DNA of 64,000 bases. Source: Neglectibacter timonensis (lineage in GTDB: Bacteria > Bacillota > Clostridia > Oscillospirales > Acutalibacteraceae). Within the stretch, counting starts at the first letter, position 1. Each line of letters begins with the position of its first letter. A program made the translations under genes and the position numbers. The notes under the pieces are model-generated. The model was not told the DNA's origin, searched no databases, and saw only the letters and a program-made list of their open reading frames with translations. Location: the NCBI RefSeq assembly GCF_900048895.1, contig NZ_LT160639.1:729524-793523 (forward strand). The letters run 5' to 3'. Shown here piece by piece: positions 10,271-31,825 of the stretch.

Positions 10271-11326
10271 ATGAACATGGGGATTCAATTGGGAATTGTT
10301 GGCTACGGAGGAATGGGCGGATTTCATCACCGAAACGCTTCCAAAATTGAAGGGGTTCAGGTGGTAGGCGCTTACGACATTGACCCCGTGCGGGTACAGG
10401 TGGCGGAGGAAAGCGGGCTCAGGGGATTTTCGTCCCTGGAGGATTTGCTTGCGTGTGAGGACATCAACACTGTTCTGGTTGCCGTGCCGAACGACTGTCA
10501 CATGGAGATCTGCATTGCCGCGTCGAATGCCGGCAAGCATGTCATCTGCGAGAAGCCTGCCGCTTTGAACGTGGACGAGCTGGATCAGATGATTGCCGCG
10601 GCTGGTCGCAACGGGAAACTCTTCACCGTACATCAGAACCGCCGTTGGGACAAGGACTTCCGGATCGTTAAGGATATCCTTGATTCCGGGGAACTGGGAA
10701 AGGTGTATTCCATCCAGTCCAGACTGCATGGATCCGGTGGAGTAATGTTCGGTTGGCGCGGTGAAAAGAAGCACGGCGGCGGCATGTTGTACGACTGGGG
10801 CGTTCACTTTATCGATCAGTTGATGTGGATGCTGGGATATGACAATTTCAGGAGCGTATTCTGCAAGACCAGCAATGTAAAAACTACGGAGGTGGAGGAC
10901 TATTTCTTCCTCGTGTTTGATTTGGAGGATGGCAGTCACGTTCAAGTGGAGATAGGGACATTTGTACTCAAAGAGCTTCCAAGATGGCTTCTGCTTGGCG
11001 ATGAGGCAACTGCCTATGTGAACGATTTTTCCAGAAGCGGCGGGATCATCCGGCTGGACAGCACAGTGGAGACAAAGTCTGAGATTATTATGACCTCGGC
11101 CGGTCCAACCAGGACGTTTGCGCCCAGGCCGGATAACGTGAAGCTTGAGAGTGAGCTTCCGGACGTGGAAGCCGATTGGTCGGAATACTACAAAAATGTG
11201 CGGGATGCGATCGACGGAAAAGCAGAGTTGATCGTACAGCCCTGGCAGGTGCGGAAAGTGCTGAAAACTATCGAAGCTGCATTCCGCTCCGCGGAAACAG
11301 GAGAACTTGTTTCTCTCAAAAATTAA
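10271..11326 (+). CDS. Gfo/Idh/MocA-family NAD(P)-dependent oxidoreductase 1
   Basis: The 351-residue protein has an N-terminal Rossmann domain with GIVGYGGMGG (residues 8-17), the family motif EKP at 94-96 (catalytic-type K95) and D175-WGV-H179 in the C-terminal domain. Members oxidise or reduce hydroxyls of sugars, inositols or their derivatives. The frame is open upstream to 10211, but ATG 10271 has GGAGG at ideal distance and fits the fold start. It has its own promoter and a terminator after it, so it is a separate unit ahead of the main cluster. It is one of four related enzymes here. The substrate is unknown. Confidence 0.9.
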   Translation: MNMGIQLGIVGYGGMGGFHHRNASKIEGVQVVGAYDIDPVRVQVAEESGLRGFSSLEDLLACEDINTVLVAVPNDCHMEICIAASNAGKHVICEKPAALNVDELDQMIAAAGRNGKLFTVHQNRRWDKDFRIVKDILDSGELGKVYSIQSRLHGSGGVMFGWRGEKKHGGGMLYDWGVHFIDQLMWMLGYDNFRSVFCKTSNVKTTEVEDYFFLVFDLEDGSHVQVEIGTFVLKELPRWLLLGDEATAYVNDFSRSGGIIRLDSTVETKSEIIMTSAGPTRTFAPRPDNVKLESELPDVEADWSEYYKNVRDAIDGKAELIVQPWQVRKVLKTIEAAFRSAETGELVSLKN

Positions 11327-11346
11327 ATTTGTAAACTCAAATGAGA

Positions 11347-11380
11347 GCCGCCTAATGAAATTATCATCAGGCGGCTTTTC
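11347..11380 (+). terminator. Rho-independent terminator
   Basis: A 12-bp stem with one mismatch (GCCGCCTAATGA / TCATCAGGCGGC), 5-nt loop and TTTTC tail starts 20 bp after the stop of the oxidoreductase gene. Confidence 0.85.
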
Positions 11381-11418
11381 GTCTATGCTGTAAGAATGAA
11401 AAAACGAGGAAAATATAG

Positions 11419-12551
11419 GGCAATACCGCACAGAAAAGTAGGCGCGATACTGCCAGAAGTGATATAATAAGACCATGGATAAACAGATGACAATGTCTGC
11501 GCTTAGTGATGAGTTGGCGCAGGTACGGACAAAGAAGAAAGAATTTCCAGCCCAGATCGAGCGGATCGTCCCGTGGAAGGAATGGCTTACGCTGATCCAG
11601 CCGTGCTATTACAAAGGAGAGCGCGGCAATAAACCCTATCCACTGGAGACCATGCTGCGGTTGTATCTGCTGCAAAATCTGTATGACCTGAGTGATGAAG
11701 CAACAGCGGCGGAGGCAATCGACAGCCGGGCATTTTCAGATTTCTGCGGCGTTGATTCCAGCAATCAGGTGCCGAACGGAGATACCATTGGCCGCTTTCG
11801 GAACCTGCCGGTGAAGAATGGACTGCAGGAGAAACTGTTTGCACAAGTTGTTACCGCGCTCACTGAACAGGGCCTTATCCTGAAAAAGGGAACGATCGTA
11901 GATTCCACCATTATTTCCGCGCCGTCTTCCACCAAGAACAAGGAGAAAAAGCGGGATCCGGATGCACATCAGGTCAAGAAGGGCAACACATGGCACTTTG
12001 GCTATAAAGCCCATGTTGGGGTGGATAAGGACAGCGGACTGGTACACACAGTGGAGGCGACACCAGCTAATGTCCATGATGTGACGCAGACTTCATCCCT
12101 GCTGACCGGTGAGGAAGATGTCGTTTACGGCGACAGTGGCTATCTTGGAGCCGGGAACCGTGAGGACGCGATCGTTCGGAACAAATCCGGACGCAAGATC
12201 AAATACAAAATTAACCGACGTCCATCTCAATTAAAAAAGCTGAGCAAGAGCGGCCAGTATGCCGCAAAGAAAGCAGAACACGCAAAGTCTTCTGTTCGGG
12301 CAAAAGTAGAGCACGTATTCGGTGTCGTCAAGAAACAGCTGCAATTTCGAAAAACGCGATACCGAGGGCTCGAAAAGCAGCGAGCCAAATTCAATATCAT
12401 GTTCGCATTGGCGAATCTGCTTCTGGCTGACAGGCCCTGCCTGGCGGCTTGAAGTTGTGCGCTCTCGCGAAGAAATGCGCCGGGAAGCCTATGGTTTCCT
12501 GCCTGATGGGTGATTCGACAGCGCTTGCCTCAGCAATTGTGCGGTGCTGCC
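11419..12551 (+). mobile_element. IS5-family insertion sequence, complete, 1,133 bp
   Basis: The element encloses one transposase gene. Its ends are imperfect inverted repeats: GGCAATACCGCACA at the left and the complement of GGCAGCACCGCACA at the right, 12 of 14 matching. The 4-bp word ATAG directly flanks both ends (11415-11418 and 12552-12555), as expected for a target duplication of IS5-type elements. It inserted in the short gap between the first oxidoreductase and the sensor kinase gene. Confidence 0.85.
11475..12452 (+). CDS. IS5-family DDE transposase
   Basis: The 325-residue protein carries an N-terminal DUF772-like region (ERIVPWKEWLTLIQPCYYKG ... PYPLETMLRLYLLQNLYDLSD). Its catalytic triad is D in IVDSTIISAPSS, D in VVYGDSGYLGA and E in SVRAKVEHVFGVVKKQL. 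The GYKAHVGVD segment before the second Asp is also typical. Length is complete and no frameshift is seen, so the element may still be active. It lies inside the IS bounded by ATAG duplications. Confidence 0.93.
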   Translation: MDKQMTMSALSDELAQVRTKKKEFPAQIERIVPWKEWLTLIQPCYYKGERGNKPYPLETMLRLYLLQNLYDLSDEATAAEAIDSRAFSDFCGVDSSNQVPNGDTIGRFRNLPVKNGLQEKLFAQVVTALTEQGLILKKGTIVDSTIISAPSSTKNKEKKRDPDAHQVKKGNTWHFGYKAHVGVDKDSGLVHTVEATPANVHDVTQTSSLLTGEEDVVYGDSGYLGAGNREDAIVRNKSGRKIKYKINRRPSQLKKLSKSGQYAAKKAEHAKSSVRAKVEHVFGVVKKQLQFRKTRYRGLEKQRAKFNIMFALANLLLADRPCLAA

Positions 12552-12585
12552 ATAGGACGATAGTCTTTCGAGAAAGGAAAACGAT

Positions 12586-14358
12586 ATGTCGTTGAGAAAA
12601 AAGCTGACATTGTCTATGCTCATGATTGCGGTGATCCCCGTGATGGTACTGGGAGGCTTTTATTATCAGTATTTCAGCGGGGTCCTTTTGAGCAACGTGC
12701 AGCAGCGGGAGCTGCAGAATAACAGCCAGATTATTTACAGCGTTGATAACTTTTTCAATTCAATCTTCAAGATTTCCGATTCCCTGCTAATGAATGAAGA
12801 GCTCATGGACATTCTGCAGAAAAGCTATGAGGAACAGAGTTCACCTCTCGAAGGATACCGCGACAAGGCACAGGTGGACAAGCTGCTTTACAAGGACGGC
12901 TATTACCTGGATGGCAGAATAGAGACTATCGCCATATTTCCGGGGAACAACAGCATGTTTTACTACTGCACAAAGGAAGACGTCAATCCGTCCTATGATA
13001 TCCATGCGGAAGAGTGGTACGAAAAGATTGCCAGTAAAGAGGGGGCGAAAGTATTGGTGGGAGTGCACCAAAACCGTCTGGTGTACGCATTCTCCGACGC
13101 AGCCAGACCCTATTGCGTAACTGTCGGAAGATCGATTTACTCCCCATATGATTCCCAACTGCTTGGCACTATGCTAATCAACATTAACGTACACGATCTC
13201 CAGACCTGCTGGCCGGCTTTCAAGGAAGATTCGCAGGAGCGGTTTTACCTGCTGGATGACGAAAACAACGTTGTGTTCAGCAATCTGACGGAGGAGATTG
13301 GCAGTAAATTCTTTCAGGACGGCCTGGAAGACGGCATTTCTTCCTGCCGAATCGACGGGGAATTGTACGATACGATCGTCTCGGGCTCCAAAAGCCTGGG
13401 ATGGAAAAGCGTCAAAATGATTCCACGCAGCCAGTTGGATCAAGAGATCGCCGTTGTTCCTTATATGACGCTCCTCCTCATGCTGATCCTTACGGTTCTG
13501 GCAGTTCTGGTTTCAATCTTTATTTCCAAAATCTCTACACGTCCGCTTCAGGAGCTTTATGTGAAGCTCCAGAGCTTTGAAGCGGAAAAAAGCGGGATTC
13601 CGCTCCCTGAAAATCAGGTGGAGATCAAAGGCCTTTCCCGCAGCTACCAGCACATGATCAACGAGATCAACGCCCTCACCATCAAAAACTACGAGACGCA
13701 GATCCAATTGCGCAGGGCAGAACTCATGGCGCTCCAATCCCAGATCAATCCCCATTTTATCTACAACACGCTCAATTCCATCAAGTGGATGGCGGATATG
13801 CAAGGATCCAAGCGTATGGTAACGGCGTTGGATTCCCTGATCAAGCTCATGCAGTTTTCCTCCAAAAACAGCCGGGAGGTCATCCGGATTCAGGACGAGA
13901 TCGATCTGATCCGGGACTACATCAACCTGATCAACCTCAAATATTTCGACAGGATCTTTGTTGATGTCCATGTGGAGCCGGGCTTGGAAAACTACGAAAC
14001 GCTGAAATTCCTTCTGCAACCGATCGTAGAGAATTCCATCTACCACGGTTTCAGCAGTATGATCCGGCAATGCACGGTGCAGATCAACATTACCCGAAAA
14101 GAAGACCGTATTCTGTATGAGGTGATCGACAATGGCAAAGGGATGAGCAAGGAGAAGATCCGACAGGCTCTGGAGGAAGATCACCCCCTCAACTCCCATT
14201 CGTTTAACAAGATCGGTCTTTATAATGTGAATAAGAGAATCCAGTATATTTTTGGAGAGGAGTACGGTATTCAAATCGACAGCGAACCCGGCAAGTACAC
14301 GAGGGTGATTGTGGAAATTCCAGCCCGTATCTATAAGGAGGAGATGGCAAATGCGTAA
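12586..14358 (+). CDS. YesM/LytS-type sensor histidine kinase
   Basis: The 590-residue protein has a first membrane helix near residues 8-28, an extracellular sensor region to about 290, a second helix (about 292-315), a HAMP-like linker and a His_kinase domain. The phospho-accepting H390 lies in QINPHFIYNTLNSIKWM. The ATPase lobe has LLQPIVENSIYHG and DNGKGM. YesM-type kinases sense extracellular sugars and act with AraC-type regulators. Its stop overlaps the response-regulator start by 8 bp. ATG 12586 follows AGAAAGGAAAA. The IS insertion ends 34 bp upstream and may affect its promoter. Confidence 0.93.
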   Translation: MSLRKKLTLSMLMIAVIPVMVLGGFYYQYFSGVLLSNVQQRELQNNSQIIYSVDNFFNSIFKISDSLLMNEELMDILQKSYEEQSSPLEGYRDKAQVDKLLYKDGYYLDGRIETIAIFPGNNSMFYYCTKEDVNPSYDIHAEEWYEKIASKEGAKVLVGVHQNRLVYAFSDAARPYCVTVGRSIYSPYDSQLLGTMLININVHDLQTCWPAFKEDSQERFYLLDDENNVVFSNLTEEIGSKFFQDGLEDGISSCRIDGELYDTIVSGSKSLGWKSVKMIPRSQLDQEIAVVPYMTLLLMLILTVLAVLVSIFISKISTRPLQELYVKLQSFEAEKSGIPLPENQVEIKGLSRSYQHMINEINALTIKNYETQIQLRRAELMALQSQINPHFIYNTLNSIKWMADMQGSKRMVTALDSLIKLMQFSSKNSREVIRIQDEIDLIRDYINLINLKYFDRIFVDVHVEPGLENYETLKFLLQPIVENSIYHGFSSMIRQCTVQINITRKEDRILYEVIDNGKGMSKEKIRQALEEDHPLNSHSFNKIGLYNVNKRIQYIFGEEYGIQIDSEPGKYTRVIVEIPARIYKEEMANA

Positions 14359-15922
14359 CATCGGGATCGCGATCATTGATGACGAGAGCCTGGTCCGGCT
14401 CGGAATCAAATCTTCTGTGGCGTGGGAAGAGTATGGCTATGAGATTGTAGGAGAAGCGGACAACGGGCAGACCGGCCTGGAGATGATCAGGGAAAAACAC
14501 CCGGATATCGTCCTGCTCGACGTCTGTATGCCGGTGATGAACGGGATCGAAGTTCTGAAATCCCTGCAAAAGCTGAAGATTCAGTGCAAGGTTATTATCT
14601 TGAGCTGCCACGATGATTTCTGTTTTGTAAAAGAGGCAATGAAGAACGGTGCGTTCGATTACCTGAGAAAAAATGAGACCAACAGCGCGAACATCCTGAC
14701 GGTTCTGGAGGAGGTACGGCACTCACTGTGCAAAAAGCAGGACGAGGGGCAGGGAGGCTGGGACAGTTACGCGCGTCATGTCTGCCTGCACCGTCTGATC
14801 ACCGGCAGCAGCGAACCTGCTGAACGGCAGTTGCCTGTCAGTCAATTGCACATCCGGGAAGGAAACCTCTGCTGCATTGTGTTTGCAGTGCAGAATTACC
14901 AGAAAGTACAGGCCCGTTACGGAGAGGGACGCCCCTTCCCACTGGAACAAAGCGTTATCAACCTCACAGTGGAAGTGCTGCACCAGTGGACGCAGGAACT
15001 GGAAGTTTTTCTTCTGCAGGAAAACCGGTATGTTATCCTGCTGAGCAGTCAGAACAGTGTCAGCAGCACCCAGTGGGAGGAGAAAGCCTGCAGCCTGGTC
15101 CACGAACTCCACACCGTGTTCCAGAATTATCTGAATGCTGACACCTGCTACGGTGTCAGCAGCGCCGTCTCGAAATTCTCTGCATTGCCGGAGGCGTTCG
15201 AGCACGCGCGCTACTCTCTGCATCTTCACTATTTTCAGCCGGACAGGTTCCTTATCAAGGAGATGCGCAAGCCGGATCGGACGATGAGCCGCCCGGAAGT
15301 CAAGGAATGCCTTGGCGATATCAATATCTGTGTGTTGCAGAAGCAATACACGCAAATCTTTTCCCGATTTTATGCTTTCATCCAGTGGCTGCAGCAGCAC
15401 CACAGGGAGAACCTGGACGTTATGGGGGTGCAGAACTTTTTCTCCAATATGGTGCGCTTCCTTCTCCTGCAGGAGGGAAAGGCGCCGGAAGAAACGGTGG
15501 AAAAGCTTCAGGCCTGCGAAACCGTGGAGGAAGCGCAGCGTTTCCTTGAGGACTTCCAAAAGGGGTTGAAGACAGGAGAGCCGGCTCTTGACCAGAAAAA
15601 CTACCTGATTCGCGAGGCGGCGGATTATATCCGGCAGAATTTGAGCCGCGGCGACATCTCGCTCGATGAGATCGCCGACCACCTGATGATCAGTAAGTCT
15701 TATCTCTGCCGCCTGTTCCAAAAAAACCTGGGGATTTCCGTGCAGCAGTACATCTACCACACCCGGATTGAACAGGCGAAGGAGTACCTGAACGACTTCC
15801 GGCTGAAAATCTACGAGGTGGCAGAGCTTACCGGCTTCAACAGCTCCACCCATTTTAATATCGTCTTTAAAAAGATTATGCGGTGCACTCCGGCAGAGTA
15901 CAGGAACGGCCTGAAGCAGTGA
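14351..15922 (+). CDS. YesN-type response regulator with AraC HTH domain
   Basis: The 523-residue protein starts with a receiver domain (IAIIDDESLVRLG; phospho-acceptor D57 in LLLDVCMPVMNG). A long middle region follows, and the protein ends with an AraC/XylS DNA-binding domain from about residue 425: DISLDEIADHLMISKSYLCR, a KNLGISVQQYI turn and VAELTGFNSSTHF. Such regulators turn on neighbouring sugar-transport operons. ATG 14351 is chosen because it begins the receiver domain and overlaps the kinase stop. It probably acts on the SBP promoter just downstream, where a 12-nt direct repeat is visible. Confidence 0.93.
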   Translation: MRNIGIAIIDDESLVRLGIKSSVAWEEYGYEIVGEADNGQTGLEMIREKHPDIVLLDVCMPVMNGIEVLKSLQKLKIQCKVIILSCHDDFCFVKEAMKNGAFDYLRKNETNSANILTVLEEVRHSLCKKQDEGQGGWDSYARHVCLHRLITGSSEPAERQLPVSQLHIREGNLCCIVFAVQNYQKVQARYGEGRPFPLEQSVINLTVEVLHQWTQELEVFLLQENRYVILLSSQNSVSSTQWEEKACSLVHELHTVFQNYLNADTCYGVSSAVSKFSALPEAFEHARYSLHLHYFQPDRFLIKEMRKPDRTMSRPEVKECLGDINICVLQKQYTQIFSRFYAFIQWLQQHHRENLDVMGVQNFFSNMVRFLLLQEGKAPEETVEKLQACETVEEAQRFLEDFQKGLKTGEPALDQKNYLIREAADYIRQNLSRGDISLDEIADHLMISKSYLCRLFQKNLGISVQQYIYHTRIEQAKEYLNDFRLKIYEVAELTGFNSSTHFNIVFKKIMRCTPAEYRNGLKQ

Positions 15923-15948
15923 GGGAAAGGTCAATATGAATAAATAAA

Positions 15949-16002: not shown

Positions 16003-16025
16003 GATATTTTCTTCAACAGCGTTTA

Positions 16026-16054: not shown

Positions 16055-16138
16055 ATAAGTAACCTAATTCGGGAAAACAGACAAAATGGAGGGAAGAGAG
16101 AAACCGGTTTTCAAAAAAAATTGAAGGAAGATAACCGA

Positions 16139-17416
16139 ATGTACAAGAAATTACTTGCGTTGTGTTTGGCGGCGCTTTTGACAGCGTCCGCGGCAGGGTG
16201 CTCCCAGGGCACAGAGGGCAGCAGCGCCCCAGCGGAAGGCGGCAGCGCCCCGGCAGGGGACGCCGCCCCCAGCGGAGAAGTGGTAACCATCCGCATGGGC
16301 GGCTGGGGCAACTTCGAGGATGAGCACGCGCCCGGCACCGTGGGCATGGAGGAGGCCATCGGCGTTAAGATAGAATTCCAGAAATACCCCACCGACGCGG
16401 ACTTCTGGAACAACCTCCCCGCCCAGATCGCGGCCAAGACGGCCCCCGACTTTATTTCCCTGACCAACGAGCTGTACCTTCCGTACATTAACGACGGCCT
16501 GGTGGTTCCCCTTACCTCCTATGTGGAGGACGGCACCATCAGCTGCTGGGACTCCATCGCACAGAACCTGAAGGATATCTGGGAGATCGACGGCGAGATT
16601 TACGGCATCCCCACCCACCAGTCCCCCGCGGTGTTCGCCATCAATATGAACCTGTGGAACGAGGCTGGCCTGACAGAGGACGACTTCCCGGAGACCTGGG
16701 ACGATGTGCTGGCGATCTGCCAGGTGTTCAAGGACCAGCTGGGGATGACCGGCCTGTGCCTGAACACCCAGGAGTTCCACTTTACCCAGTACGCCCTCTC
16801 CTTCGGCGGCGGCTGGGGCCTGGGCAAGACCATCAACACCCCCGAGAACGCCGCGGCCCTGCAGTTCCTTATCGACGCCTACCACCAGGGCTATGTGGTT
16901 ACCCCGAAGGAGCTGGGCGTGAGCTATGACGGCTCCGTGCTCATGACAAACGACGCGGCCATGTCCACCGGCGGCACCTGGTATATCAACGACTTTGCCA
17001 AGAACGCGCCGGATGTGGAGGTCCGCTACATCAAGATCCCCCACGCGGAAGGCCACGAGGACGCTTCCGGCACCTTCCACGCCCCCGCCTACGCCATCCT
17101 GAAGGGCGGCGCCCACGAGAAAGAGACCGCCATGGCCATCAATTATTTGATGAATGACGCTCGTTACGAGGCCATCATTGACCTGGGCTATATCCCAGTG
17201 GATGAGAAATTCTTCGACGAGTTCCGGGAGAAGCAGCCGGCGCTGGCCGACCAGATAGAAGCTCTCCCTCTTTCCAACGGCTTCGGCTACCCCCCCTCCG
17301 GCAAAATGTTTGCCGACGCGCTGATCTCCAAAATGGAGGAAGCCCTTTTCAACCCTGACTCCACCGTAACCGGCGCTCAGATTGTGGAAGAACTCCAGGC
17401 GGAGTATGGCGAGTAA
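16139..17416 (+). CDS. ABC sugar importer, extracellular solute-binding lipoprotein
   Basis: The 425-residue protein begins with a lipoprotein signal peptide (MYKKLLALCLAALLTASAAGC, cleavage before C21), followed by an Ala/Gly/Ser-rich linker and a family 1 (SBP_bac_1) fold. Typical features are AAKTAPDFISL, YGIPTHQSPAVFAINMNLW and GGTWYIND. Family members bind mono- or oligosaccharides at the cell surface and deliver them to two permeases. ATG 16139 is chosen for the signal peptide; the frame is open to 15989. It heads the import operon. Its ligand should reveal the substrate of the whole cluster. Confidence 0.92.
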   Translation: MYKKLLALCLAALLTASAAGCSQGTEGSSAPAEGGSAPAGDAAPSGEVVTIRMGGWGNFEDEHAPGTVGMEEAIGVKIEFQKYPTDADFWNNLPAQIAAKTAPDFISLTNELYLPYINDGLVVPLTSYVEDGTISCWDSIAQNLKDIWEIDGEIYGIPTHQSPAVFAINMNLWNEAGLTEDDFPETWDDVLAICQVFKDQLGMTGLCLNTQEFHFTQYALSFGGGWGLGKTINTPENAAALQFLIDAYHQGYVVTPKELGVSYDGSVLMTNDAAMSTGGTWYINDFAKNAPDVEVRYIKIPHAEGHEDASGTFHAPAYAILKGGAHEKETAMAINYLMNDARYEAIIDLGYIPVDEKFFDEFREKQPALADQIEALPLSNGFGYPPSGKMFADALISKMEEALFNPDSTVTGAQIVEELQAEYGE

Positions 17417-17460
17417 AGGGCACCAAAGAGGAATAAAAACGAAAGAATGAGATTGTCGGT

Positions 17461-17491
17461 GCCCCCTGGCGGCCAACGGCTGTCAGGGGGC
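17461..17491 (+). other. Intergenic hairpin between SBP and permease genes
   Basis: GCCCCCTG (17461-17468) pairs with CAGGGGGC (17484-17491), with an inner GCC/GGC stem. There is no T run. Such hairpins between binding-protein and permease genes often stabilise the SBP transcript and lower permease expression. Confidence 0.6.
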
Positions 17492-17509
17492 ATAATCAAA
17501 GGAGGGATT

Positions 17510-18436
17510 ATGGGGATGACGACTGAGAATACAGGCGGCGGAGGAAAAAAGCACAGTAAGCTGCGCAGGCAAGAGGCAGTGGCAGGCTGGCTTTTTGTGC
17601 TGCCCGCGGTAATCTTCTGGCTTGTTTGGTTTTTGTACCCGGCGGTAAAGGCTATCTCTATCAGCTTCTTCCGGTACAACTACGCCACGCCGGAGACTAA
17701 CGCCTTTATCGGGATGGAAAACTACATCCGCCTGTTTCAGGATCCCAAATTTTTTGAGGCCATGCAGCACAGCTTCCTCATGGTGCTTGTCATTGTGCCG
17801 CTGCAGTCCCTTTTTGCCTTTTCCATTGCGGTCCTGCTCAATGGGAAAATCCGGTTTAAAGGGTTCTTCCGCTCCAGCTGCTACATACCCTACGTGATTT
17901 CGTCAATGGCGGTTACCATCTTTTTCATGTACTTCTTCATCAAGGATGGGCCCGCGACCAAATTCTTTACCCTTTTTGGCTTTGAAAATGTAAGCTGGTT
18001 TGCCAACGTGAAGTACGCGCTCCCCTTCCTCATCATCCTTTACGTGTGGCAGTAGGTGGGCTTTTACGTGGTGATCTTCATCGGCGGCCTGCAGGAGATC
18101 CCGGCAGAGCTGTACGAGGCGGCCAAGGTAGACGGGGCCGGCCCCTGGCAGCGGCTCATCCGCATTACGGTGCCGCTTTTGAAAAACACCACCTACCTGG
18201 TTTTGACCTTTGGCATGATCAACGCGTTCCAGGTTTTTGACCAGATAGCGGCCATGTCCAAGCAGTCCCCGCTGGGTTCCCCTTCGGGCGCCACCAGCAC
18301 GCTGGTCACCTTTTTGTACCAGCAGTCCTTCAGCTACATGGACATGGGCTACGGCAGCGCCGCCGCGGTGATCCTTTTCCTCATCATCTTTTCCTTGTCC
18401 ACCGTGCGGGAAATTTTAGGAAGGAGGTCGGAATAA
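17510..18436 (+). pseudogene. ABC sugar permease (MalF/UgpA type), interrupted by in-frame TAG
   Basis: ATG 17510 follows AAAGGAGGG. The frame encodes membrane helices (WLFVLPAVIFWLVWFLYPAVK and others) up to codon 181. Codon 182 is TAG (18053-18055), after which the same frame continues without shift to 18436. The part after the stop has the EAA cytoplasmic loop (IPAELYEAAKVDGAG) and the last helices, which the ATPase needs. The full frame would encode 308 residues, the normal length. The site reads VWQ-stop-VGFY, where relatives often have an aromatic residue, so one TGG-to-TAG change would explain it. Causes could be true decay, a sequencing error or suppression. Confidence 0.85.
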
Positions 18437-19258: not shown

Positions 19259-19319
19259 ACCCAGGCCCGGGAACAGGTTTCCCGGCATTACAATACTGAC
19301 ACAATGGAGGAATGCAGAA

Positions 19320-20417
19320 ATGAAAAAATGGAAGGTTGCCTTAATTGGCTGCGGATCGATCGCGGACAATACGTATCTTCCCCGGATCGGCGAGATTCCG
19401 GAGGCGGATCTGGTTGCAGTCTGCGATATCATCCCGGAGAGAGCAAAGAACTATGCAGAAAAATTTCATGTGCCGGCCTGGTACACCAGCATCGATGAAC
19501 TGCTGGAGAAGTGTGACTTCGAGATCCTGATGAACACGACATCGATCCCAGCGCACCACGAGATCAACATGAAGGCGCTGCGGGCCGGAAAGCATCTTTA
19601 CTCACAGAAGCCCGTCGGCCTGACGGTGGAGGAGGTGACCGAGCAGATCGAGGCTGCCAAGGCAGCCGGTGTGAAATACACTGCTTCACCGATCCACATG
19701 CTGCGTGACGACATCCGCTTTGCCAAAAAGCTGATTGCCGACGGCTGCATCGGGGAGATTATGAAGGTGCACACCAACGTTTGCCACGGCGGCCCGGAAT
19801 ATTTCCAGTACCGCACGGCGGACCCCACCTGGTTCCACCGGCCCGGCAGCGGCGCCCTGTACGACATGGGCGTCCACGGCCTTACCATGACCACGGGCAT
19901 CCTTGGTCCCGCGAAGGCTGTGGGCTGCATGGCCAAAATCTCCGAGCCTGTCCGCACGGTAAGAACCGGTACCTTTGACGGCATGCAGATCCAGGCCGAC
20001 CAGCTGTACGATAACTACATCATTACGCTCGATTACGGCGAGAGAACCATGGCGGTGGTGGAGTCCGGCTTCTGCCAGAAGGACAGCCGCGCACCTCAGA
20101 TGGAGATTTTCGGTACAAAGGGAACGATCACTTTCGTCAACAACGGTAACATGAACCCGCTCGATTCGCTGGAAGTTTACCTTGATGCGCCGGAGCGCGG
20201 TATTCGCGGCTGGCTGAAGCCTATGGAGTGGGATGTTCCGGCTTCTGAGATGAACTTTTTCCAATGCAAGGTGGTTCAGGATCTGATCCATGCCATTGAG
20301 GAGGACCGTCCCGTCGGTTTGCCCCCGGAGCACGCCAGACACGTGGTGGACATCATGTGCACTATTCCGGAAGCGATCAAGACAAAGAGCATTGTCCCGC
20401 TGCACACCACTTTCTGA
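19320..20417 (+). CDS. Gfo/Idh/MocA-family oxidoreductase 2
   Basis: The 365-residue protein has a Rossmann start (VALIGCGSIADN, G10-C-G12) and the usual C-terminal sheet domain with a YDMGVHGL segment. Where the family normally has EKP, this protein has Q96-K97-P98 (YSQKPVGLT). The lysine is kept, but the preceding acidic residue is lost. ATG 19320 follows GGAGG. It lies 61 bp after the permease gene. It probably acts on the imported sugar or a derivative, and the altered motif may mark a different reaction from its three siblings. Confidence 0.9.
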   Translation: MKKWKVALIGCGSIADNTYLPRIGEIPEADLVAVCDIIPERAKNYAEKFHVPAWYTSIDELLEKCDFEILMNTTSIPAHHEINMKALRAGKHLYSQKPVGLTVEEVTEQIEAAKAAGVKYTASPIHMLRDDIRFAKKLIADGCIGEIMKVHTNVCHGGPEYFQYRTADPTWFHRPGSGALYDMGVHGLTMTTGILGPAKAVGCMAKISEPVRTVRTGTFDGMQIQADQLYDNYIITLDYGERTMAVVESGFCQKDSRAPQMEIFGTKGTITFVNNGNMNPLDSLEVYLDAPERGIRGWLKPMEWDVPASEMNFFQCKVVQDLIHAIEEDRPVGLPPEHARHVVDIMCTIPEAIKTKSIVPLHTTF

Positions 20418-20452
20418 GCAGAGGGGAACTGATCACAGATGAGGTGAATGTT

Positions 20453-21571
20453 ATGAAGAAATATCGCATTGGTCTGGTGGGCTTCGCTCACATGCACGTT
20501 TTGGGTCAGATCAAGCCGTTTCTGTCCATGCCGGAGCGCGTGGAATGGATCGGTGCCTCGGATATCAAGCCGATGGTAGAGTCTGAATATTTTGAAAGCT
20601 CCAGCCGCTCCATGAACCTGAAGCTCTGTCAGGAGCAGTGTGGGTTCACCCGCGTGTTTGAGGATTACCGTGATCTTCTCGATCTCAAACCCGACCTTGT
20701 CCTTGTGAACTGCGAGAACGCGTTTCACGGAATCGTTATCCCCGAGATCCTCATGCGCGGGATCCACGTGGTGGTGGAAAAGCCGTTGGCCTATTCCACT
20801 GAACACGCCATGGCTATTGCCCGCGCTTCCCGGATCGGTAAGGCGGACTGCATGATCAATTGGCCGACCACATGGCAGGCCAGCGTCCGCCTGGGCCAGA
20901 AGCTTGTCAGCGAAGGTGTTGTGGGAAAGGTGTACCGTTTCCAGTTCCGCAACCCGGATTCCATGGGTCCGTTCTCTTACGGCCAGGTCATGACGGATCG
21001 GCAGCTGGGCAAGGAATGGTGGCATCAGGAAGCGGCGGGAGGCGGCAGCTTGCTGGACTACTGCTGCTACGGCACCATCCTTTCGAACTGGTACCTGGGC
21101 GAAAAGCCTCAGGGCGTGTATGGCTTGAAGGCGAACTTTAACCACCGGTTTGGCGACGCGGAGGACTACGCCTCCCTGATGGTTCGGTACCCCGAGGCGG
21201 TTTCCATTCTGGAGGGAACCTGGAACACCATAAGCAGCGGCTATCCCTCCGGGCCCATTGTCTGGGGCGAAAAGGGCGCCCTGATTGTGGAAAACGGCGA
21301 CCATGGCATCCACGCCAACGTTTGTGTTTACCTCGATCGTTATTCCACAACGCCCAGCAAGGTGTATTGCTCCGACGACTACCCGCTGCCTGAGGGAAGA
21401 TCCAACCTGGCTCAGGAGGTCTTCCATCACCTGGAGACCGGAGAACCGGTACACTACACCATGGATCTCAATAACAATCTTTGGTCTGCCGCTATGTTGG
21501 ATGCGGGAATTCGCTCCAGCCGGTCGTTGAAAATGGAAGAAGTAAAAACCGCTTGTTGGACGATTGGGTAA
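20453..21571 (+). CDS. Gfo/Idh/MocA-family oxidoreductase 3
   Basis: The 372-residue protein keeps the EKP motif (E109-K110-P111), but its nucleotide loop reads GLVGFAHMHVLGQ rather than the standard GxGxxG. That form occurs in a recognisable branch of the family. The frame is open upstream into oxidoreductase 2, but ATG 20453 has GAGGTGAA upstream and matches the fold start. It follows oxidoreductase 2 by 35 bp and precedes the TIM-barrel gene by 19 bp. Confidence 0.9.
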   Translation: MKKYRIGLVGFAHMHVLGQIKPFLSMPERVEWIGASDIKPMVESEYFESSSRSMNLKLCQEQCGFTRVFEDYRDLLDLKPDLVLVNCENAFHGIVIPEILMRGIHVVVEKPLAYSTEHAMAIARASRIGKADCMINWPTTWQASVRLGQKLVSEGVVGKVYRFQFRNPDSMGPFSYGQVMTDRQLGKEWWHQEAAGGGSLLDYCCYGTILSNWYLGEKPQGVYGLKANFNHRFGDAEDYASLMVRYPEAVSILEGTWNTISSGYPSGPIVWGEKGALIVENGDHGIHANVCVYLDRYSTTPSKVYCSDDYPLPEGRSNLAQEVFHHLETGEPVHYTMDLNNNLWSAAMLDAGIRSSRSLKMEEVKTACWTIG

Positions 21572-21590
21572 TATAAGAGGAGGATGCTAC

Positions 21591-22478
21591 ATGAAACTTG
21601 CAAACGTTTCCTGGGGTTGGACGCCGATCCCGGAGGATATGCCGCATGGGGACTCTCTGATCCGAATCGCGGATCAGATCCGTGAACTCGGCTTCGAGGG
21701 CGTGGACTATCTGGGAACCCCGGAAGCACTGGATGAATTCTTCACGGAGGAAGCCTGCCGGGCGCTGGGGGATCACTCCCGCTCCATCGGCCTTGAACCC
21801 AACGTGTTCGTCTTCCAGGACGCTTCGTGGAACGACGCCTGCAGCGAAAAAAGGGAGGACAGCGTCAGGCACTTCGAGAAGGCCGCACAGGCCGCAAAGT
21901 GGATCGGATGCCGGATTGTCTCCACGCTGGTGCCGATGCCCTGCGGCGCAACCCCCTGGAAGTTCAACCCCGCCGCACCGGCGATCAAGCAGGGATACCA
22001 TATGCCCGCCGACTACTGCTACCAGAAGGACTGGGATACCCTGATGGACAGTTACCGCAAGTGTCTGGCCATTGCAAAGCGGTACGGGCTGCGCATGTCC
22101 GTGGAGTGCTTCCCCTATTCCATGATCTCCACACCGCACGCCATGCTGCAGCTGCTCAAGGACGTCGATGACCCGGATTTCGGCATTCAGCTGGACACGA
22201 ACCACCTGATCATGCAGCACATCGATCCGGAATGGACGATCTACATGCTGGGAGGCAAACGTATTTTCAATGTTCACTGCAAAGACAGCGATGCCGTCTC
22301 CAGAAACAACATCCCCGCCGGCTGCGGCATCACCGACTATCCCGCTGTGATTCAGGCGCTGAAGAATGTCGGGTATGACGGAAACCTTTCCGTCGAGCTG
22401 GAGTTCACAGACAACCCCCGCCGCTACAACAAGCAGGCGATGGATCATCTCAAGCTCTGCCTTGCGGGTGAATACTGA
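21591..22478 (+). CDS. Sugar phosphate isomerase/epimerase-like TIM barrel (xylose isomerase-like family)
   Basis: The 295-residue protein fits AP-endonuclease-2/xylose-isomerase-like barrels such as IolE, IolH, epimerases and C-deglycosidase subunits. Metal-site residues appear in order: E in SVECFPYS, D in QLDTNHL, H in NVHCKD and E in SVELEF. The combination with Gfo/Idh/MocA enzymes recalls inositol catabolism (IolG/IolE) and C-glycoside cleavage by gut bacteria (3-oxidation followed by elimination). The start ATG 21591 follows GAGGAGG. Exact activity cannot be assigned. Confidence 0.85.
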   Translation: MKLANVSWGWTPIPEDMPHGDSLIRIADQIRELGFEGVDYLGTPEALDEFFTEEACRALGDHSRSIGLEPNVFVFQDASWNDACSEKREDSVRHFEKAAQAAKWIGCRIVSTLVPMPCGATPWKFNPAAPAIKQGYHMPADYCYQKDWDTLMDSYRKCLAIAKRYGLRMSVECFPYSMISTPHAMLQLLKDVDDPDFGIQLDTNHLIMQHIDPEWTIYMLGGKRIFNVHCKDSDAVSRNNIPAGCGITDYPAVIQALKNVGYDGNLSVELEFTDNPRRYNKQAMDHLKLCLAGEY

Positions 22479-22570
22479 GCTGCCGTCTGGAGGCACACAG
22501 GGGGTATCCCCCTCGATCCGGGCGCGGCGCCGGATAAAAATCATGTTTTTTTGGAAGAGGAGTAGGAGTA

Positions 22571-23698
22571 ATGAAGCAGTATAAGGTTGCCATCATCGGC
22601 AACGGTATGATTTGCAACGCGGCACATATTCCCGCCTACAAAGCCATGGGTGACAAGGTGAAGATTGTCGCAGTGGCGGATATCCGCGAGGAAGCCGCCA
22701 AAGAAACCGCCGAGCGTCACGGGATCCCCAAGTACTATGTGGATCCGTATAAAATGCTGGAGGAGGAGAAACCCGACATCATCTCCGTGTGCACACCGAA
22801 CGCATACCACAAGGAGTATACCCTTGCCGGTTTCCGTGCGGGCTGCCATGTAGTCTGCGAAAAGCCTGTGGCTGTAACCTGCGCGGATGCGGAGGAGATG
22901 TTCAACGCGGCGGAGAAGGCGGGGAAACATCTGTTTGTCATCCAGTCTCTGCGTTTCACGGGTAACTTCAAAGCGGCTGCCGGACTGGCAAAAAGCGGTT
23001 GCCTGGGAGACATTTACTACGCGGATCTGAACCTGGTCCGGCGCCGCGGCGTTCCGAGATGGGGCATGTTCCACATGGCGAAAGAAAATGTGGGCGGCGC
23101 CTTCTGCGACCTGGGCGTTCATATGTGCGACTACCTGATGTCAATTTCCGGTAACCCGAAGATGGTTTCCGTCAGTGGAAGTGCTGTGACCAGGATCGTC
23201 AACAAGGAGAAGAATATTGAGTTCTCCAATGCGGAGAGCGGAGCTCCCACCGGTCTGTTCACTCCCAGAAAGTTCGACATGAAAGAGTTTGATGTTGAGG
23301 AATTTGCCAACGGCTACATTCGTCTGGAAAATGGCATGACAGTCACTTTCAAGATCTCCTGGGCGCTGAATCTGCCCAACAGCAACACTGTCAGCATCTG
23401 CGGAGACAAGGGCGGTCTGACCATTGGGGACGATGGACTCAAGCTGCTCACGACGCAGGGCAATTACCAGGCCGACGTTTTGCCGAGGGTTTTCCCCGAC
23501 CCATATACGGAACTCTCAGATTTCACCGGCCACATCCACGAGATGAACTACATCCTGAAGGTCCTCAACGGGGAAATGACCATGGAGGAATACCCCATCC
23601 AGAAGGACGAGGTTATGAATGTGGTTGCGATCATCGAAGCGTTTTACAAATCTGCACAGCTGGGCAGGGAAGTCACTGCTCAGGAACTGGACCGGTAA
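22571..23698 (+). CDS. Gfo/Idh/MocA-family oxidoreductase 4
   Basis: The 375-residue protein has VAIIGNGMICNAAH (G10-N-G12), the EKP motif at 97-99 (VCEKPVAVT) and a C-terminal CDLGVHMCDYLM segment. ATG 22571 follows GGAGTAGGAG. A 92-bp gap with a small GGGGG/CCCCC hairpin separates it from the TIM-barrel gene. It resembles oxidoreductase 1 in motif content more than 2 or 3. It is the last oxidoreductase before the radical enzyme genes. Confidence 0.9.
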   Translation: MKQYKVAIIGNGMICNAAHIPAYKAMGDKVKIVAVADIREEAAKETAERHGIPKYYVDPYKMLEEEKPDIISVCTPNAYHKEYTLAGFRAGCHVVCEKPVAVTCADAEEMFNAAEKAGKHLFVIQSLRFTGNFKAAAGLAKSGCLGDIYYADLNLVRRRGVPRWGMFHMAKENVGGAFCDLGVHMCDYLMSISGNPKMVSVSGSAVTRIVNKEKNIEFSNAESGAPTGLFTPRKFDMKEFDVEEFANGYIRLENGMTVTFKISWALNLPNSNTVSICGDKGGLTIGDDGLKLLTTQGNYQADVLPRVFPDPYTELSDFTGHIHEMNYILKVLNGEMTMEEYPIQKDEVMNVVAIIEAFYKSAQLGREVTAQELDR

Positions 23699-23751
23699 GC
23701 GGAAGCTGCAAGGGATATTTGCACAGAGCACGGCGTGACGGAAGAACTTGC

Positions 23752-23812
23752 CGTTTCGCCTTGGGACGAAACGCAACAGGGGGACTCTGCCCGGGCGGGA
23801 GAGCCCCCTGTT
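23752..23812 (+). other. Tandem hairpins upstream of GRE activase
   Basis: CGTTTCG/CGAAACG (23752-23773) is followed by a strong GC-rich hairpin (AACAGGGGG+CTCT / AGAG+CCCCCTGTT, 23775-23812). Neither has a T run. They lie in the 150-bp gap before the activase gene and may stabilise or process the downstream GRE transcript. Confidence 0.6.
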
Positions 23813-23848
23813 CTGGTGTGCGAGACGACAACGGAAGGGGAGGAATCC

Positions 23849-24754
23849 ATGAAAGGAATCATAACGGAGATTGAGAGGTTTGCGCTGAAAGACGGACCGG
23901 GGATCCGCACCACAGTGTTTTTCAAGGGGTGCAACATGGCGTGCAAATGGTGCCATAACCCGGAAACGCTGTCGGTTCGGCCACAGCTGATGATTTATCC
24001 GGACAAATGCATTGGCTGCGGCGCCTGTGTGGAGGCCTGCAGGGCGGGAGCCAGAACCCTCGGCAAAAACGGTGCCCTGCAGTACGATCGCACCGCCTGC
24101 AAGCACTGCGGAGCCTGCGCCGCGAACTGCTTCTCCGGTGCTCTCGTCATGTCCGGAAAGGAGATGACCGTTGAGGAAGTGATGGAGGAGATCCTGCAGG
24201 ACAGGGCTTACTACCGGAATTCCGGCGGCGGCGTAACACTCTCCGGCGGCGAGGTTTCCACGCAGCCAGAATTTGCCCTGGAATTGCTGCAGGCCCTGAA
24301 AAAGGAGGGAATTTCCACGGCGATCGAGACGAACCTGCATGCGCCATGGAGCGTCTACGAAAGAATGCTGCCCTTCCTCGATCTGGTGATGTTCGACATC
24401 AAGATTTTCGATGAGGAAGCGCACAGACGCTGGACCGGCGTGAGCAATCGTCAAATCCTGGAGAACGCAAAGAAGGTGGCGGCTTCCGGCAAGCCTTATC
24501 TGGTGCGTACCCCGGTGATCCCCGGAGTGAACGACACGGAGGAGGAGATCGGCAGCATTGCCAACTACGTGGGAACCCTGGGAGGCGCTCAATATTATGA
24601 GCTTCTGCTGTTCAATCCCCTGGGAGAGAGCAAGTATGACGCCCTGCAGATGGACAATACATTTGCCGGGACCCGCCCCACTGGAGAGGAAGGCGCAGCA
24701 CGCCTGAAATGGGTGGCCGCTCAAACGCCCGGACTTTCCGTGAGGGTAGGCTGA
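23849..24754 (+). CDS. Glycyl-radical enzyme activating enzyme (radical SAM)
   Basis: The 301-residue protein uses S-adenosylmethionine and a [4Fe-4S] cluster to abstract a hydrogen from the glycyl loop of its partner. The radical-SAM cysteines are C28, C32 and C35 (GCNMACKWCHN). Two ferredoxin-like clusters follow (C54, C57, C60, C64 and C84, C87, C90, C94), as in activases of glycerol dehydratase-type GREs rather than of PFL itself, which lacks the insert. Other typical features are DGPGIRTTVF, the GGGVTLSGGE motif and DIKIFD. ATG 23849 follows GGGGAGGA. The gene ends 20 bp before the GRE gene. Confidence 0.95.
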   Translation: MKGIITEIERFALKDGPGIRTTVFFKGCNMACKWCHNPETLSVRPQLMIYPDKCIGCGACVEACRAGARTLGKNGALQYDRTACKHCGACAANCFSGALVMSGKEMTVEEVMEEILQDRAYYRNSGGGVTLSGGEVSTQPEFALELLQALKKEGISTAIETNLHAPWSVYERMLPFLDLVMFDIKIFDEEAHRRWTGVSNRQILENAKKVAASGKPYLVRTPVIPGVNDTEEEIGSIANYVGTLGGAQYYELLLFNPLGESKYDALQMDNTFAGTRPTGEEGAARLKWVAAQTPGLSVRVG

Positions 24755-24774
24755 CGAAGAAAGGGAGAGGTTGT

Positions 24775-26976
24775 ATGGTCAACAGAATCAATATATTCCA
24801 GCCGGATGCTCCCATGAGCTACGATGACAGGATCAAAATTTTAAAGGAAAGAAAGCTTGAGGAAACCAGGGTGAAGTCCACCATGAAGGTGTATCAGGAC
24901 GGGGATGACTATGGAAGCATCCCGGCTCCGGAGACGTACCAGTTCCATTGCATTCCGAACCACGAGAACGGTTCCTGGTACGGGTATGACGGGTGGAGCA
25001 AGAATTTTTACAAGCTGATGACTGAGCACCCGGTCTACATTGATCCGGTGGACGCGTTCACCTGCCGCTGGATGTTCAGTATGATCTGGTTTGACGAGAA
25101 ATCCCCGGACAAGGGGCTGAACTGGAACCCGAATTTTCCCTACGATGATCTCAAGCCGGAACAGGAACTGTATGGCATTATCTCCGGGATCGGCTCGGAC
25201 GCGCACTTCGGCGGCGACTACCGGATCGGGTTGAGCCTTGGCTGGGGCGGGATCTTGGAAAAGCTGGCTTTCTACCGCAAAAAGCACCCCGAACACGCAG
25301 AGTTTTACGACGCGGAGGAACTTGTGGTGCACGGTGTGCAGAACTGGATCTCGCACGCGATTGAGGAGAGCGAGCGTCTGGCCCGTGTGGAGCGCCATCC
25401 GGTCCTGCGGGAAAACCTGCTTCAAATGGCGCAGGTAAATCGCAACATCCTCAACGGTGCGCCCAAAACCATGCGGGAAGCCTGTCAGTGGGTTTGCTGG
25501 TTCAACATGGCCAGCCGCACCTACAACCGCGACGGAGCGGGTTTCCAGCTCGATGAAGTGCTCAAACAGTACTACGATGCCGACATGAAAGAGGGGAGGA
25601 TCACCAGGGACGAGGCGATCTTCTACATCGCTTGTCTGTTGCTCAACGATCCGCACTATTACCAGATCGGAGGGACAAACGAAAACGGCGATCCCCTGCT
25701 CAGCGAGTTCAGCTATATGGTGCTCGAGGGAGCGGATAAGCTGGATTCGGCTTGCAACATCACGGTAAGAGTGGACGAAAACATCGACAGAAAGTTCCTG
25801 AACAAAGCGGTGGACTACCTGTTCAAGAACAAGAACGGCTGGCCGCGCTTTTCCGGTGACGAGGCCCTGAACAGAGGCTTCATGCGTTTGGGCTATCCCG
25901 AATCGCTTGCCCGGCAGAGGATCGCGGTGGGCTGCCACTGGATGAGCTTGCCCGGCATGGAGTACAGCTTGAATGACTGCGTCAAAATCAACAGCGCTAA
26001 GGTGTTCGAGGTTGCCATGGATGAGATGATGAGCCATAAGGGCCCATACTCCACACAACTGCTGTGGGATCTGTACCAGAGACATATGGCCCGGGCTGTA
26101 GAGGTAACTGCCGAGGGTATCGCGTTCCACCTGCGGTACCAACAGTACAACGAGCCGGAGCTGATGTTGAACCTGATCAGTCATGGTCCTATCGAAAAAG
26201 GTCTGGATATGACGTGCGGCGGCGCCATGTACTACAACCTCTGCATGGACGGCTCGGCTATTGCCACGGTGGCGGACTCTTTTGGCGCACTGCAGCAGCG
26301 GGTGGAGGAGGAGAAGCGGATCGACTGGGAGACGCTTTACCATCATCTGAAAACAGATTTCCAGGATAAGGGCGGTGAGCTTGTACGCCAGATGCTCTCC
26401 CGCAGTGCCCGCTACGGCGGCGGAAACACCATCAGCGACCAGTGGGCGGTGAAAATTTCGGAGTCATACTCCAACCAGGTGCGCTCCGTCAGCCAGAAGT
26501 ATCCGGGCTACCAGTTTATCCCCGGCTGGTTCAGCTGGTCGAATACGATTGTGCTCGGCAAGCAGGTAGGTGCCACCCCCAACGGCCGCCACGCCTTCGA
26601 GCCGATCAACCATGGGGCCAACCCGCACCCCGGCTTCCGCAAGGACGGCGCCCTCACCGCAATGAGCAATTCCATCTGCGCGGTGCAGCCGGGCTATGGG
26701 AATACCGCGCCGGTACAGCTGGAGCTTGACCCTGGTATGGGGCGCGGTGAGGAGGCTGTGCAAAAGATCGCCGACTATATCATGACGCTGTTCGAGCAGG
26801 GGGCCACCCTGCTGAACATCAATATTGTGAACGGTCAGCAGATTCTCGAAGCCGACAAGGACCCCAGCAAGTACCCCAACCTGGTGGTACGCGTCACGGG
26901 CTTTACGGCGTACTTCTGCTCTCTGACTCCGGAGTTCAGAAAACTGGTGGTGGATCGTATTCTCATACAGGGATGA
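24775..26976 (+). CDS. Glycyl radical enzyme of unassigned specificity
   Basis: The 733-residue protein has the C-terminal glycyl-radical loop VRVTGFTAYF with Gly709 and the usual tail LTPEFRKLVVDRIL. The mid-protein thiyl-radical site is Cys387 in RIAVGCHWMSLPG. Known GRE eliminases (glycerol, propanediol, choline, hydroxyproline, isethionate) have C-x-E, where Glu is the base; here the residues are His-Trp. At 733 residues it is shorter than most (about 780-850). The N-terminal region DPVDAFTCRWMFSMIWF and the segment LLLNDPHYYQIGG do not match a family I can name. ATG 24775 follows AAGGGAGAGG. Its neighbours point to a sugar-like substrate. Confidence 0.9.
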   Translation: MVNRINIFQPDAPMSYDDRIKILKERKLEETRVKSTMKVYQDGDDYGSIPAPETYQFHCIPNHENGSWYGYDGWSKNFYKLMTEHPVYIDPVDAFTCRWMFSMIWFDEKSPDKGLNWNPNFPYDDLKPEQELYGIISGIGSDAHFGGDYRIGLSLGWGGILEKLAFYRKKHPEHAEFYDAEELVVHGVQNWISHAIEESERLARVERHPVLRENLLQMAQVNRNILNGAPKTMREACQWVCWFNMASRTYNRDGAGFQLDEVLKQYYDADMKEGRITRDEAIFYIACLLLNDPHYYQIGGTNENGDPLLSEFSYMVLEGADKLDSACNITVRVDENIDRKFLNKAVDYLFKNKNGWPRFSGDEALNRGFMRLGYPESLARQRIAVGCHWMSLPGMEYSLNDCVKINSAKVFEVAMDEMMSHKGPYSTQLLWDLYQRHMARAVEVTAEGIAFHLRYQQYNEPELMLNLISHGPIEKGLDMTCGGAMYYNLCMDGSAIATVADSFGALQQRVEEEKRIDWETLYHHLKTDFQDKGGELVRQMLSRSARYGGGNTISDQWAVKISESYSNQVRSVSQKYPGYQFIPGWFSWSNTIVLGKQVGATPNGRHAFEPINHGANPHPGFRKDGALTAMSNSICAVQPGYGNTAPVQLELDPGMGRGEEAVQKIADYIMTLFEQGATLLNINIVNGQQILEADKDPSKYPNLVVRVTGFTAYFCSLTPEFRKLVVDRILIQG

Positions 26977-31812: not shown

Positions 31813-31825
31813 ATGTCCGCCTCCA

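Follow-up and report, generated by a model that had tools for sequence, protein, structure and literature searches.

In this work, we describe a gene block of Neglectibacter timonensis that combines a glycyl radical enzyme (GRE), its radical-SAM activase, four oxidoreductases of the Gfo/Idh/MocA family (MocA1 to MocA4) and a xylose-isomerase-like TIM barrel. The block lies on the plus strand, at positions 10271 to 26976 of the 64,000-nucleotide stretch that was analysed (hereafter the window), which is part of contig 13 of a 3.67 Mb genome, and it also contains a YesM/YesN-like regulatory pair and a CUT1-type importer (Table 1). All these genes had been listed in an earlier reading made from the letters alone (the sequence-only reading) and all were found, but an IS5 transposase (11475-12452) and an amber stop in the permease A gene had been overlooked. 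The absence of a kinase and an aldolase from the block, noted in the same reading, was confirmed, and its four MocA proteins fall below the cut-off for IolG. Judged from sequence, the GRE represents a family that is apparently new within a known superfamily and that is placed in a new type of operon.

The window GRE has the marks of the pyruvate formate-lyase-like GRE superfamily, with PF02901 and PF01228 over their cut-offs, a thiyl cysteine loop (GCHWMSLPGMEYSLND, including Cys387) and a glycyl loop of the RVxGx type (RVTGFTAYF, including Gly709). Its open reading frame (ORF) opens within that of the activase, and the likely start is at 24775. Among 114 unique GREs we recognised 63 members of its family, of which all retain the cysteine and 62 the glycine, the remaining row being gapped at this position. 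No named NCBIfam GRE model reaches its cut-off with the window GRE, the best being TIGR01774 (236 bits vs. 678), and the best of the equivalog models for named GRE 1,2-eliminases gives 212 bits against a cut-off of 1109; placement in a known functional family, which would have spoken against the sequence-only reading, was thus not observed. A fully supported branch separates the 63 family members from three outgroup rows. The nearest solved chain is PflD of Escherichia coli (304 bits), followed by the best CutC (282 bits) and glycerol dehydratase (268 bits). By these sequence comparisons, the family is distinct and apparently undescribed.

The family is best recognised by the surroundings of its radical cysteine, where the pattern G-C-[HN]-W-x3-PG-x-E-x4-D is present in 63 of 63 relatives, each position being invariant within its stated choice: Gly before the cysteine, His or Asn at +1, Trp at +2, Pro-Gly at +6 and +7, Glu at +9 and Asp at +14. 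In the 51 other GREs, position +2 is never Trp and is mostly Glu (36 sequences; Ser in 6, Gln in 3, Asp, Gly and Asn in 2 each), while Glu at +9 occurs in 13 and Asp at +14 in 5. The eliminase GREs, that is, glycerol and propanediol dehydratases, CutC, HypD and IslA, use a Glu two residues past the thiyl cysteine, and the five solved GREs aligned with ours have Glu at that position, against Trp in the whole family. Three further residues separate the two groups, since His437, Asp492 and His613 are kept in all 63 rows but in only 2, 1 and 0 of the 51 others. On the other hand, His144 and Asp401, each kept in 63 of 63, align with His164 and Asp447 of glycerol dehydratase, which we take to be active-site positions; the other GREs have His in 40 and Asp in 5 of 51 cases.

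These counts depend on how the sequences were sampled. Relatives were drawn from 300 genomes of the family, 394 of the order, 391 of the class and 398 of the phylum, plus eight named contigs; the samples overlap in some genomes, and at the stated cut-offs 11, 14, 28 and 3 genomes, respectively, were GRE-positive, counting N. timonensis each time. Near relatives are over-represented among the 63 rows, since these were collected by their similarity to the window GRE. ORFs of up to 560 amino acids were excluded, and the 63 do not include the GRE of genome G125, which is split over two pieces (L029 and L030), or a near copy of the window GRE from another genus (L021, see below). Copy numbers are lower bounds, since only the best few candidates were scored per genome. 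The 51 control GREs are uneven, with 24 from G977, 8 from G708, 6 from G1351, 2 each from G983 and G1384, 4 from N. timonensis itself, 3 from E. coli K-12 and 2 from family loci, so that 42 belong to five genomes in which family GREs are present as well, 24 of them to a single genome. Some of the sampled genomes are rich in PFL-like GRE matches (28 in G977, 16 in G777, 13 in G1084 and 11 in G708, some of them split), and the GREs of G977, G708 and G1351 show a wide spread of residues at Cys+2, indicating an uncharted GRE expansion. One locus (L032, 7072-12239) has two unlike GREs side by side, a GCGEY-type GRE and a family GRE, along with an activase.

The GRE-MocA neighbourhood that the sequence-only reading pointed out proved to be conserved well beyond one genome. 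An operon walk places MocA genes in the operon of 28 of the 63 family GREs and of none of the 51 others. The association differs among the GRE clades, being present in 11 of 16 members of clade A, to which the window belongs, in 17 of 22 of clade B and in none of the 25 of a third clade. Counting same-strand genes up to 5 kb away, at least one MocA gene accompanies 30 of 63 family GREs vs. 2 of 51 others, and three or more accompany 17 vs. none; on the tree, this last label requires 6 changes, a number as low as which was obtained in 0 of 500 shuffles. An activase is present in 55 of the 63 family operons.

Co-occurrence gives a similar picture. In the 394 order-level genomes, again counting our own, MocA2 (E ≤ 1e-60) was found in 10, the GRE (E ≤ 1e-90) in 14 and both in 9, an overlap with P ~3e-14 without correction for relatedness. 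The tenth MocA2 genome (G882), not listed by the GRE search, carries the whole operon, but its contig ends within the GRE gene. The order MocA2-MocA3-MocA4-MocA3'-(activase)-GRE recurs in ten loci (L067-L071, L124, L127, L130, L134 and L218) from four families other than that of the window, although no activase adjoins in L124 and the GRE is cut in L218; compared with the window proteins, their MocA2 score 404-453 bits and their MocA4 372-395 bits. G777 has the MocA2-3-4 genes on one contig and the MocA3'-activase-GRE genes on another. Read from their arrangement, the genes form one conserved unit, and the GRE and MocA genes very probably serve one pathway. With 28 MocA genes in the 3.67 Mb genome of N. 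timonensis, 24 of them outside the block, 0.11 would be expected per 17 kb from this background, and the probability of four or more is ~6e-6. As this estimate ignores ordinary operon clustering, the linkage across genomes is the better test, and together with co-occurrence it rules out a chance neighbourhood.

The partner enzymes give some clues about the chemistry. The nearest PDB relative of MocA3 is glucose-fructose oxidoreductase, a weak match (E 3e-10) in which Tyr217, presumably, is the tyrosine that stands at the His position of the D-x3-H pair. MocA3 has the same replacement, and D-x3-Y is present in 27 of 27 MocA3-type proteins (MocA3 and MocA3') of family operons, including that of the window; unlike its PDB relative, MocA3 shares an operon with a GRE. 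The four-MocA operons thus have two His-type (MocA2 and MocA4) and two Tyr-type members (MocA3 and MocA3'). By its PDB matches, MocA4 is a homologue of DgpA, aligning over its full length with DgpA1 (9m3d, E 2.9e-51) and DgpA (7xr9, E 2.1e-48) and keeping the catalytic D/H pair and the R-R-[RK]-x-V-P-x-W-G loop. DgpA has been described as an enzyme that oxidises glucosides at C3, its NAD being bound and a 3-oxo-sugar serving as the acceptor (PMC11239390). The TIM barrel is only weakly similar to solved proteins (MJ1311, TM0416 and tagatose 3-epimerase). Clade A and five clade-B loci (L066, L119, L122, L125 and L129; PF01261 was confirmed for L122) have TIM-barrel genes of several kinds, but none lies within the ten four-MocA operons, and the TIM barrel thus falls outside the shared core.

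A second MocA2/MocA3 paralogue pair is present on contig 12 of N. timonensis (L215, 10913-15814, and L216, 3-6206), at a locus that also holds LacI-like and AraC-like regulators, a CUT1-type importer, a GH65 gene and a URO-D-like gene. The GRE locus L129 likewise has a CUT1-type importer and GH65, and because of these neighbours we consider that the MocA pairs probably work around glycosides. Near other family GREs there are several types of sugar importers and genes for GH130, GH38, fucosidase-like, PMI-like, hexokinase, GPI, ribulose-phosphate-epimerase, FGGY and PfkB proteins; among neighbourhood genes, the names YesM/YesN, LacI, AraC, ROK, parts of CUT2 and some TIM barrels were given by eye. 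A 'TGFQE' protein of ~730 amino acids recurs beside GC[HN]W GREs (L036, 8595-10811; L038, 11369-13645; L112, 11192-13384; L137, 8445-10640), often accompanied by CUT1-type importer genes. It gave no useful match in Pfam, NCBIfam or PDB, not every copy having been compared with every library, and revealed no substrate.

Among known systems, PflD and YbiW resemble the window GRE in the GRE fold predicted from sequence and, as noted, no solved chain scores higher than PflD. The position of glycerol dehydratase His164 is kept in the window GRE, PflD and YbiW, and that of Asp447 in the window GRE and PflD. However, PflD and YbiW have Glu where the window GRE has Trp at Cys+2, they lack Glu396, His437, Asp492 and His613, which are invariant in our family, and the phosphotransferase system genes beside pflD and the fsa gene near ybiW have no counterpart in the block. 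Glycerol and propanediol dehydratases, CutC, HypD and isethionate lyase share with the window GRE both Pfam domains, the thiyl cysteine and the glycyl loop, but differ in that their named models match far below cut-off and in the Glu at Cys+2.

The dgp cluster for C-glycoside cleavage also combines MocA and sugar isomerase-like genes in one block, to which that of N. timonensis adds the GRE. No match to PF19906, the DgpB/DgpC beta-subunit domain, was found in the N. timonensis genome, although control genomes gave none either, and no DgpC-type chain was present among the 13 PDB matches of the TIM barrel. C-glycoside cleavage of the strict dgp kind thus received no support. The levoglucosan pathway (LgdA-LgdB1-LgdB2-LgdC) follows a similar logic of dehydrogenase and isomerase-like protein, with oxidation at C3 followed by elimination (PMC7676230). 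That pathway uses hydration, whereas the block has a radical enzyme, and it was rejected here, as the four MocA proteins give 36 to 91 bits with the LgdA model NF052479 (cut-off 650). The inositol pathway was rejected on similar grounds (IolG model TIGR04380, 37 to 116 bits, cut-off 355). The sequence-only reading knew of no described pathway joining a GRE with MocA enzymes, and we found no such title among the matches listed from the open literature. A direct search for a GRE acting on anhydroglucitol or anhydrofructose likewise found no open-access paper, though one review covers YbiW and PflD.

The data would fit the earlier proposal that the GRE may convert a keto-sugar, cyclitol or anhydro-sugar into a central metabolite. 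We tentatively go further and suggest that the block may be a horizontally moved anaerobic catabolic operon, in which the new GRE would perform the committed step on a neutral sugar-type compound; the full chain, as follows, is possible but rather doubtful. MocA4, with tightly held NAD(H), would oxidise C3 of the sugar of a glycoside. The aglycone would then leave the 3-keto-glycoside by beta-elimination, spontaneously in the case of O-glycosides or with the help of the TIM barrel, giving 1,5-anhydro-hex-1-en-3-ulose. According to published work, DgpA-type enzymes make 3-oxo-glycosides, most of the 3-oxo-O-glycosides tested fall apart non-enzymatically to aglycone and a hexose enediolone (PMC11239390), and 1,5-anhydro-D-erythro-hex-1-en-3-ulose is the proposed product of C-glycoside elimination (PMC8563793). 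Next, MocA2 and MocA3, as a His-type and Tyr-type pair, would reduce the enone to a 1,5-anhydrohexitol, consuming reducing power, which would be useful to a fermenter. The activated GRE, through Cys387, would abstract a hydrogen beside the ring C-O bond, so that the ring opens to a deoxy-ketose, which unlinked kinases and aldolases would pass into glycolysis. The steps up to the anhydrohexitol are inferred by analogy with characterised relatives; ring opening and what follows are conjecture. The model for the ring opening comes from YbiW and PflD, which, according to a review that relates the work of Ma et al. (2024), cleave the 6-phosphates of 1,5-anhydroglucitol and 1,5-anhydromannitol to 1-deoxyfructose-6-phosphate (PMC12441222).

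Several observations weigh against this pathway. PflD-like chemistry may not apply to a GRE that has Trp instead of Glu at Cys+2 throughout its family, PflD scores little better than CutC and glycerol dehydratase, and the block holds neither a phosphotransferase nor a kinase. The mannose-6-phosphate-isomerase-like, hexokinase, GPI and ribulose-phosphate-epimerase genes of other family loci speak for the handling of intact sugars and not of 1-deoxy sugars. Furthermore, 33 of the 63 family GREs lack a same-strand MocA gene at a distance of up to 5 kb (some of these GREs lie on short contigs), and MocA genes are absent from all operons of the third clade, which indicates that the GRE itself needs no MocA steps. 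A broader formulation has, in our judgement, slightly less than an even chance of being right: that the family, with its rebuilt catalytic loop (GC[HN]W...PGxE), performs a radical reaction new to the superfamily on unphosphorylated sugars, either ring opening of neutral anhydro-sugars or epimerisation, and that together with MocA redox pairs this would amount to a reductive, oxygen-sensitive dismantling of glycosides without hydrolysis across many families of Clostridia.

A possible, though not likely, alternative, about as probable as the full chain, is that a rare sugar or cyclitol has its stereochemistry changed by the His-type and Tyr-type MocA pairs together with the TIM barrel, and that the GRE then dehydrates it to a deoxy-keto compound by ordinary 1,2-elimination, the base having moved from Cys+2 to the invariant Glu at Cys+9. 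The two enzymes of each type per four-MocA operon, the constancy of D-x3-Y, the second MocA2/MocA3 pair with its importer and GH65, and the retention of the glycerol dehydratase positions and of the Cys+9 Glu in all family members would fit such a scheme. However, that Glu also occurs in other GREs and is therefore not family-specific, it is found in 0 of the 5 aligned solved GREs, and many operons lack a TIM barrel.

The loss of the Cys+2 Glu that eliminases use would also suit an epimerase, in which one hydrogen is removed and returned without elimination, leaving an intact common sugar. In line with this idea, a relative with 56% identity (L063) is adjoined only by an activase and an importer that looks like CUT2 by eye (its binding protein matches PF13407), the intact-hexose genes mentioned above (hexokinase, GPI, PMI-like and ribulose-phosphate epimerase) are found at L033, and L137 has FGGY and PfkB kinases and a galactitol-phosphate-dehydrogenase-like gene. 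Even so, we regard this reading as unlikely, since the sequence gives no assignable invariant second hydrogen donor and the MocA pairs could already epimerise by redox; we know of no GRE epimerase. Cleavage of a C-C bond in a keto-sugar made by MocA enzymes, as pyruvate formate-lyase does on a 2-keto acid, is less probable again: the Cys+2 residue of that enzyme is also not Glu (Ser in PflB), but it has an adjacent Cys-Cys pair, in place of which all 63 family members have G-C-[HN]-W, and they keep the His and Asp of the glycerol dehydratase type.

The history of the island bears on both its function and the entry of its substrate. Oscillospiraceae bacterium MH27-2 (L021), from another genus, carries the island with DNA identities of 99.0% (3,703 bp) and 99.6% (7,914 bp), whereas the pyruvate formate-lyase genes of the two genomes, used for comparison, are 73% identical. 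The MH27-2 contig begins within the IS5 element that the window also has and ends, just past the GRE, inside the start of another IS5-type transposase. Based on these data, the island was transferred recently, probably with IS5 elements. In Acutalibacter sp. 1XD8-36 (L029), a relative of MocA1 (333 bits) adjoins the sensor orthologue, with a gap of ~65 bp.

The importer has fared differently from the enzymes. The gene with the amber codon (18053-18055) is uninterrupted in the relatives L022 and L023, and the MH27-2 copy has lost the binding protein and both permeases, where the joint (L021, 3641-3760) falls within an imperfect repeat of 19 bp (window 16074-16092 and 19292-19310) that overlaps a ribosome-binding-site-like sequence. 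The importer is thus probably dead in the window genome and is deleted in a nearly identical copy, and the substrate may not depend on it for entry; either a different importer serves or the substrate arises intracellularly. Between the two copies, MocA2, the TIM barrel, MocA4, the activase and the GRE show 15 nucleotide differences with 2 amino acid changes, and MocA3 is 99.2% identical at the protein level. By contrast, 21 nucleotide differences produced 19 amino acid changes in the sensor kinase (12586-14358 vs. L021 197-1966), and the response regulator has 15 and 9. Compared with L022, dN/dS is 0.02 to 0.12 for the five computable enzyme genes (the activase excluded), with silent sites near saturation. 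Selection maintains the enzymes, while the importer and sensor are lost or drifting. The same conservation makes it improbable that the MocA, TIM-barrel and GRE genes merely hitch-hike on an IS5-flanked island without present function in their host, as decaying cargo, even though the amber stop, the importer deletion, the IS5 insertion and the sensor drift would agree with that.

Downstream of the block, positions 30700 to 41969 of the window hold, on the minus strand, a further block of transport and sugar-type genes, with a Zn-alcohol dehydrogenase, a weakly ceramidase-like protein, an AGE-type epimerase and an Opp-type importer with SBP_bac_5, beside which there is a LysR regulator on the plus strand.

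Table 1. Genes and other features of the GRE-MocA block and its borders (window positions).
Feature	Position	Strand	Evidence
tRNA-Ala gene, upstream of the block	9256-9331		
MocA1, Gfo/Idh/MocA oxidoreductase, His-type (D-x3-H)	10271-11326	+	PF01408 95.8 bits, over cut-off
IS5-family transposase, inserted between MocA1 and sensor kinase	11475-12452	+	NF033581 327 bits (cut-off 140)
YesM-like sensor histidine kinase (name by eye)	12586-14358	+	Histidine-kinase profile matches
YesN-like response regulator (name by eye), AraC-type output domain	14351-15922	+	Response-regulator and AraC-type matches
Importer interval missing from the MH27-2 copy	16093-19291	.	DNA comparison with L021
CUT1-type sugar-binding protein	16139-17416	+	PF13416 92 bits, PF01547 80 bits
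CUT1-type permease A, in-frame amber codon 18053-18055	17510-18436	+	ORF and sequence reading
CUT1-type permease B	18437-19258	+	Profile match
MocA2, His-type, core partner co-occurring with the GRE	19320-20417	+	PF01408 69 bits; D-x3-H motif
MocA3, Tyr-type (D-x3-Y), closest to glucose-fructose oxidoreductase among solved structures	20453-21571	+	PF01408 over cut-off
Xylose-isomerase-like TIM barrel, weakly like ketose 3-epimerases	21591-22478	+	PF01261 124 bits
MocA4, His-type, full-length homologue of DgpA (glycoside 3-dehydrogenase)	22571-23698	+	PF01408 over cut-off; PDB matches
Radical-SAM GRE activase, ferredoxin-like insert	23849-24754	+	TIGR02494 343 bits (cut-off 174), PF04055 80.5 bits, Fer4
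GRE	24775-26976	+	PF02901 348 bits, PF01228 50 bits
Serine recombinase C-terminal part (zinc ribbon), downstream, likely mobile-element remnant	27477-28490		Profile matches

Named GREs run key reactions of the gut, such as the conversion of choline to trimethylamine, the dehydration of hydroxyproline and the formation of p-cresol, and we know of no described fermentative fate for the anhydro-enone product of glycoside 3-oxidation. Many abundant gut GREs have unknown functions, as stated in a review (PMC11574389). Our results give one such family a sequence fingerprint, defined partner enzymes and a testable pathway. The constancy of these partners across related bacteria suggests an anaerobic route, so far undescribed, by which sugar-like compounds are broken down. 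If the GRE opens neutral anhydro-sugars, glycoside 3-oxidation would be linked to radical chemistry; if it epimerises instead, the reaction would, as far as is known, be new for GREs.

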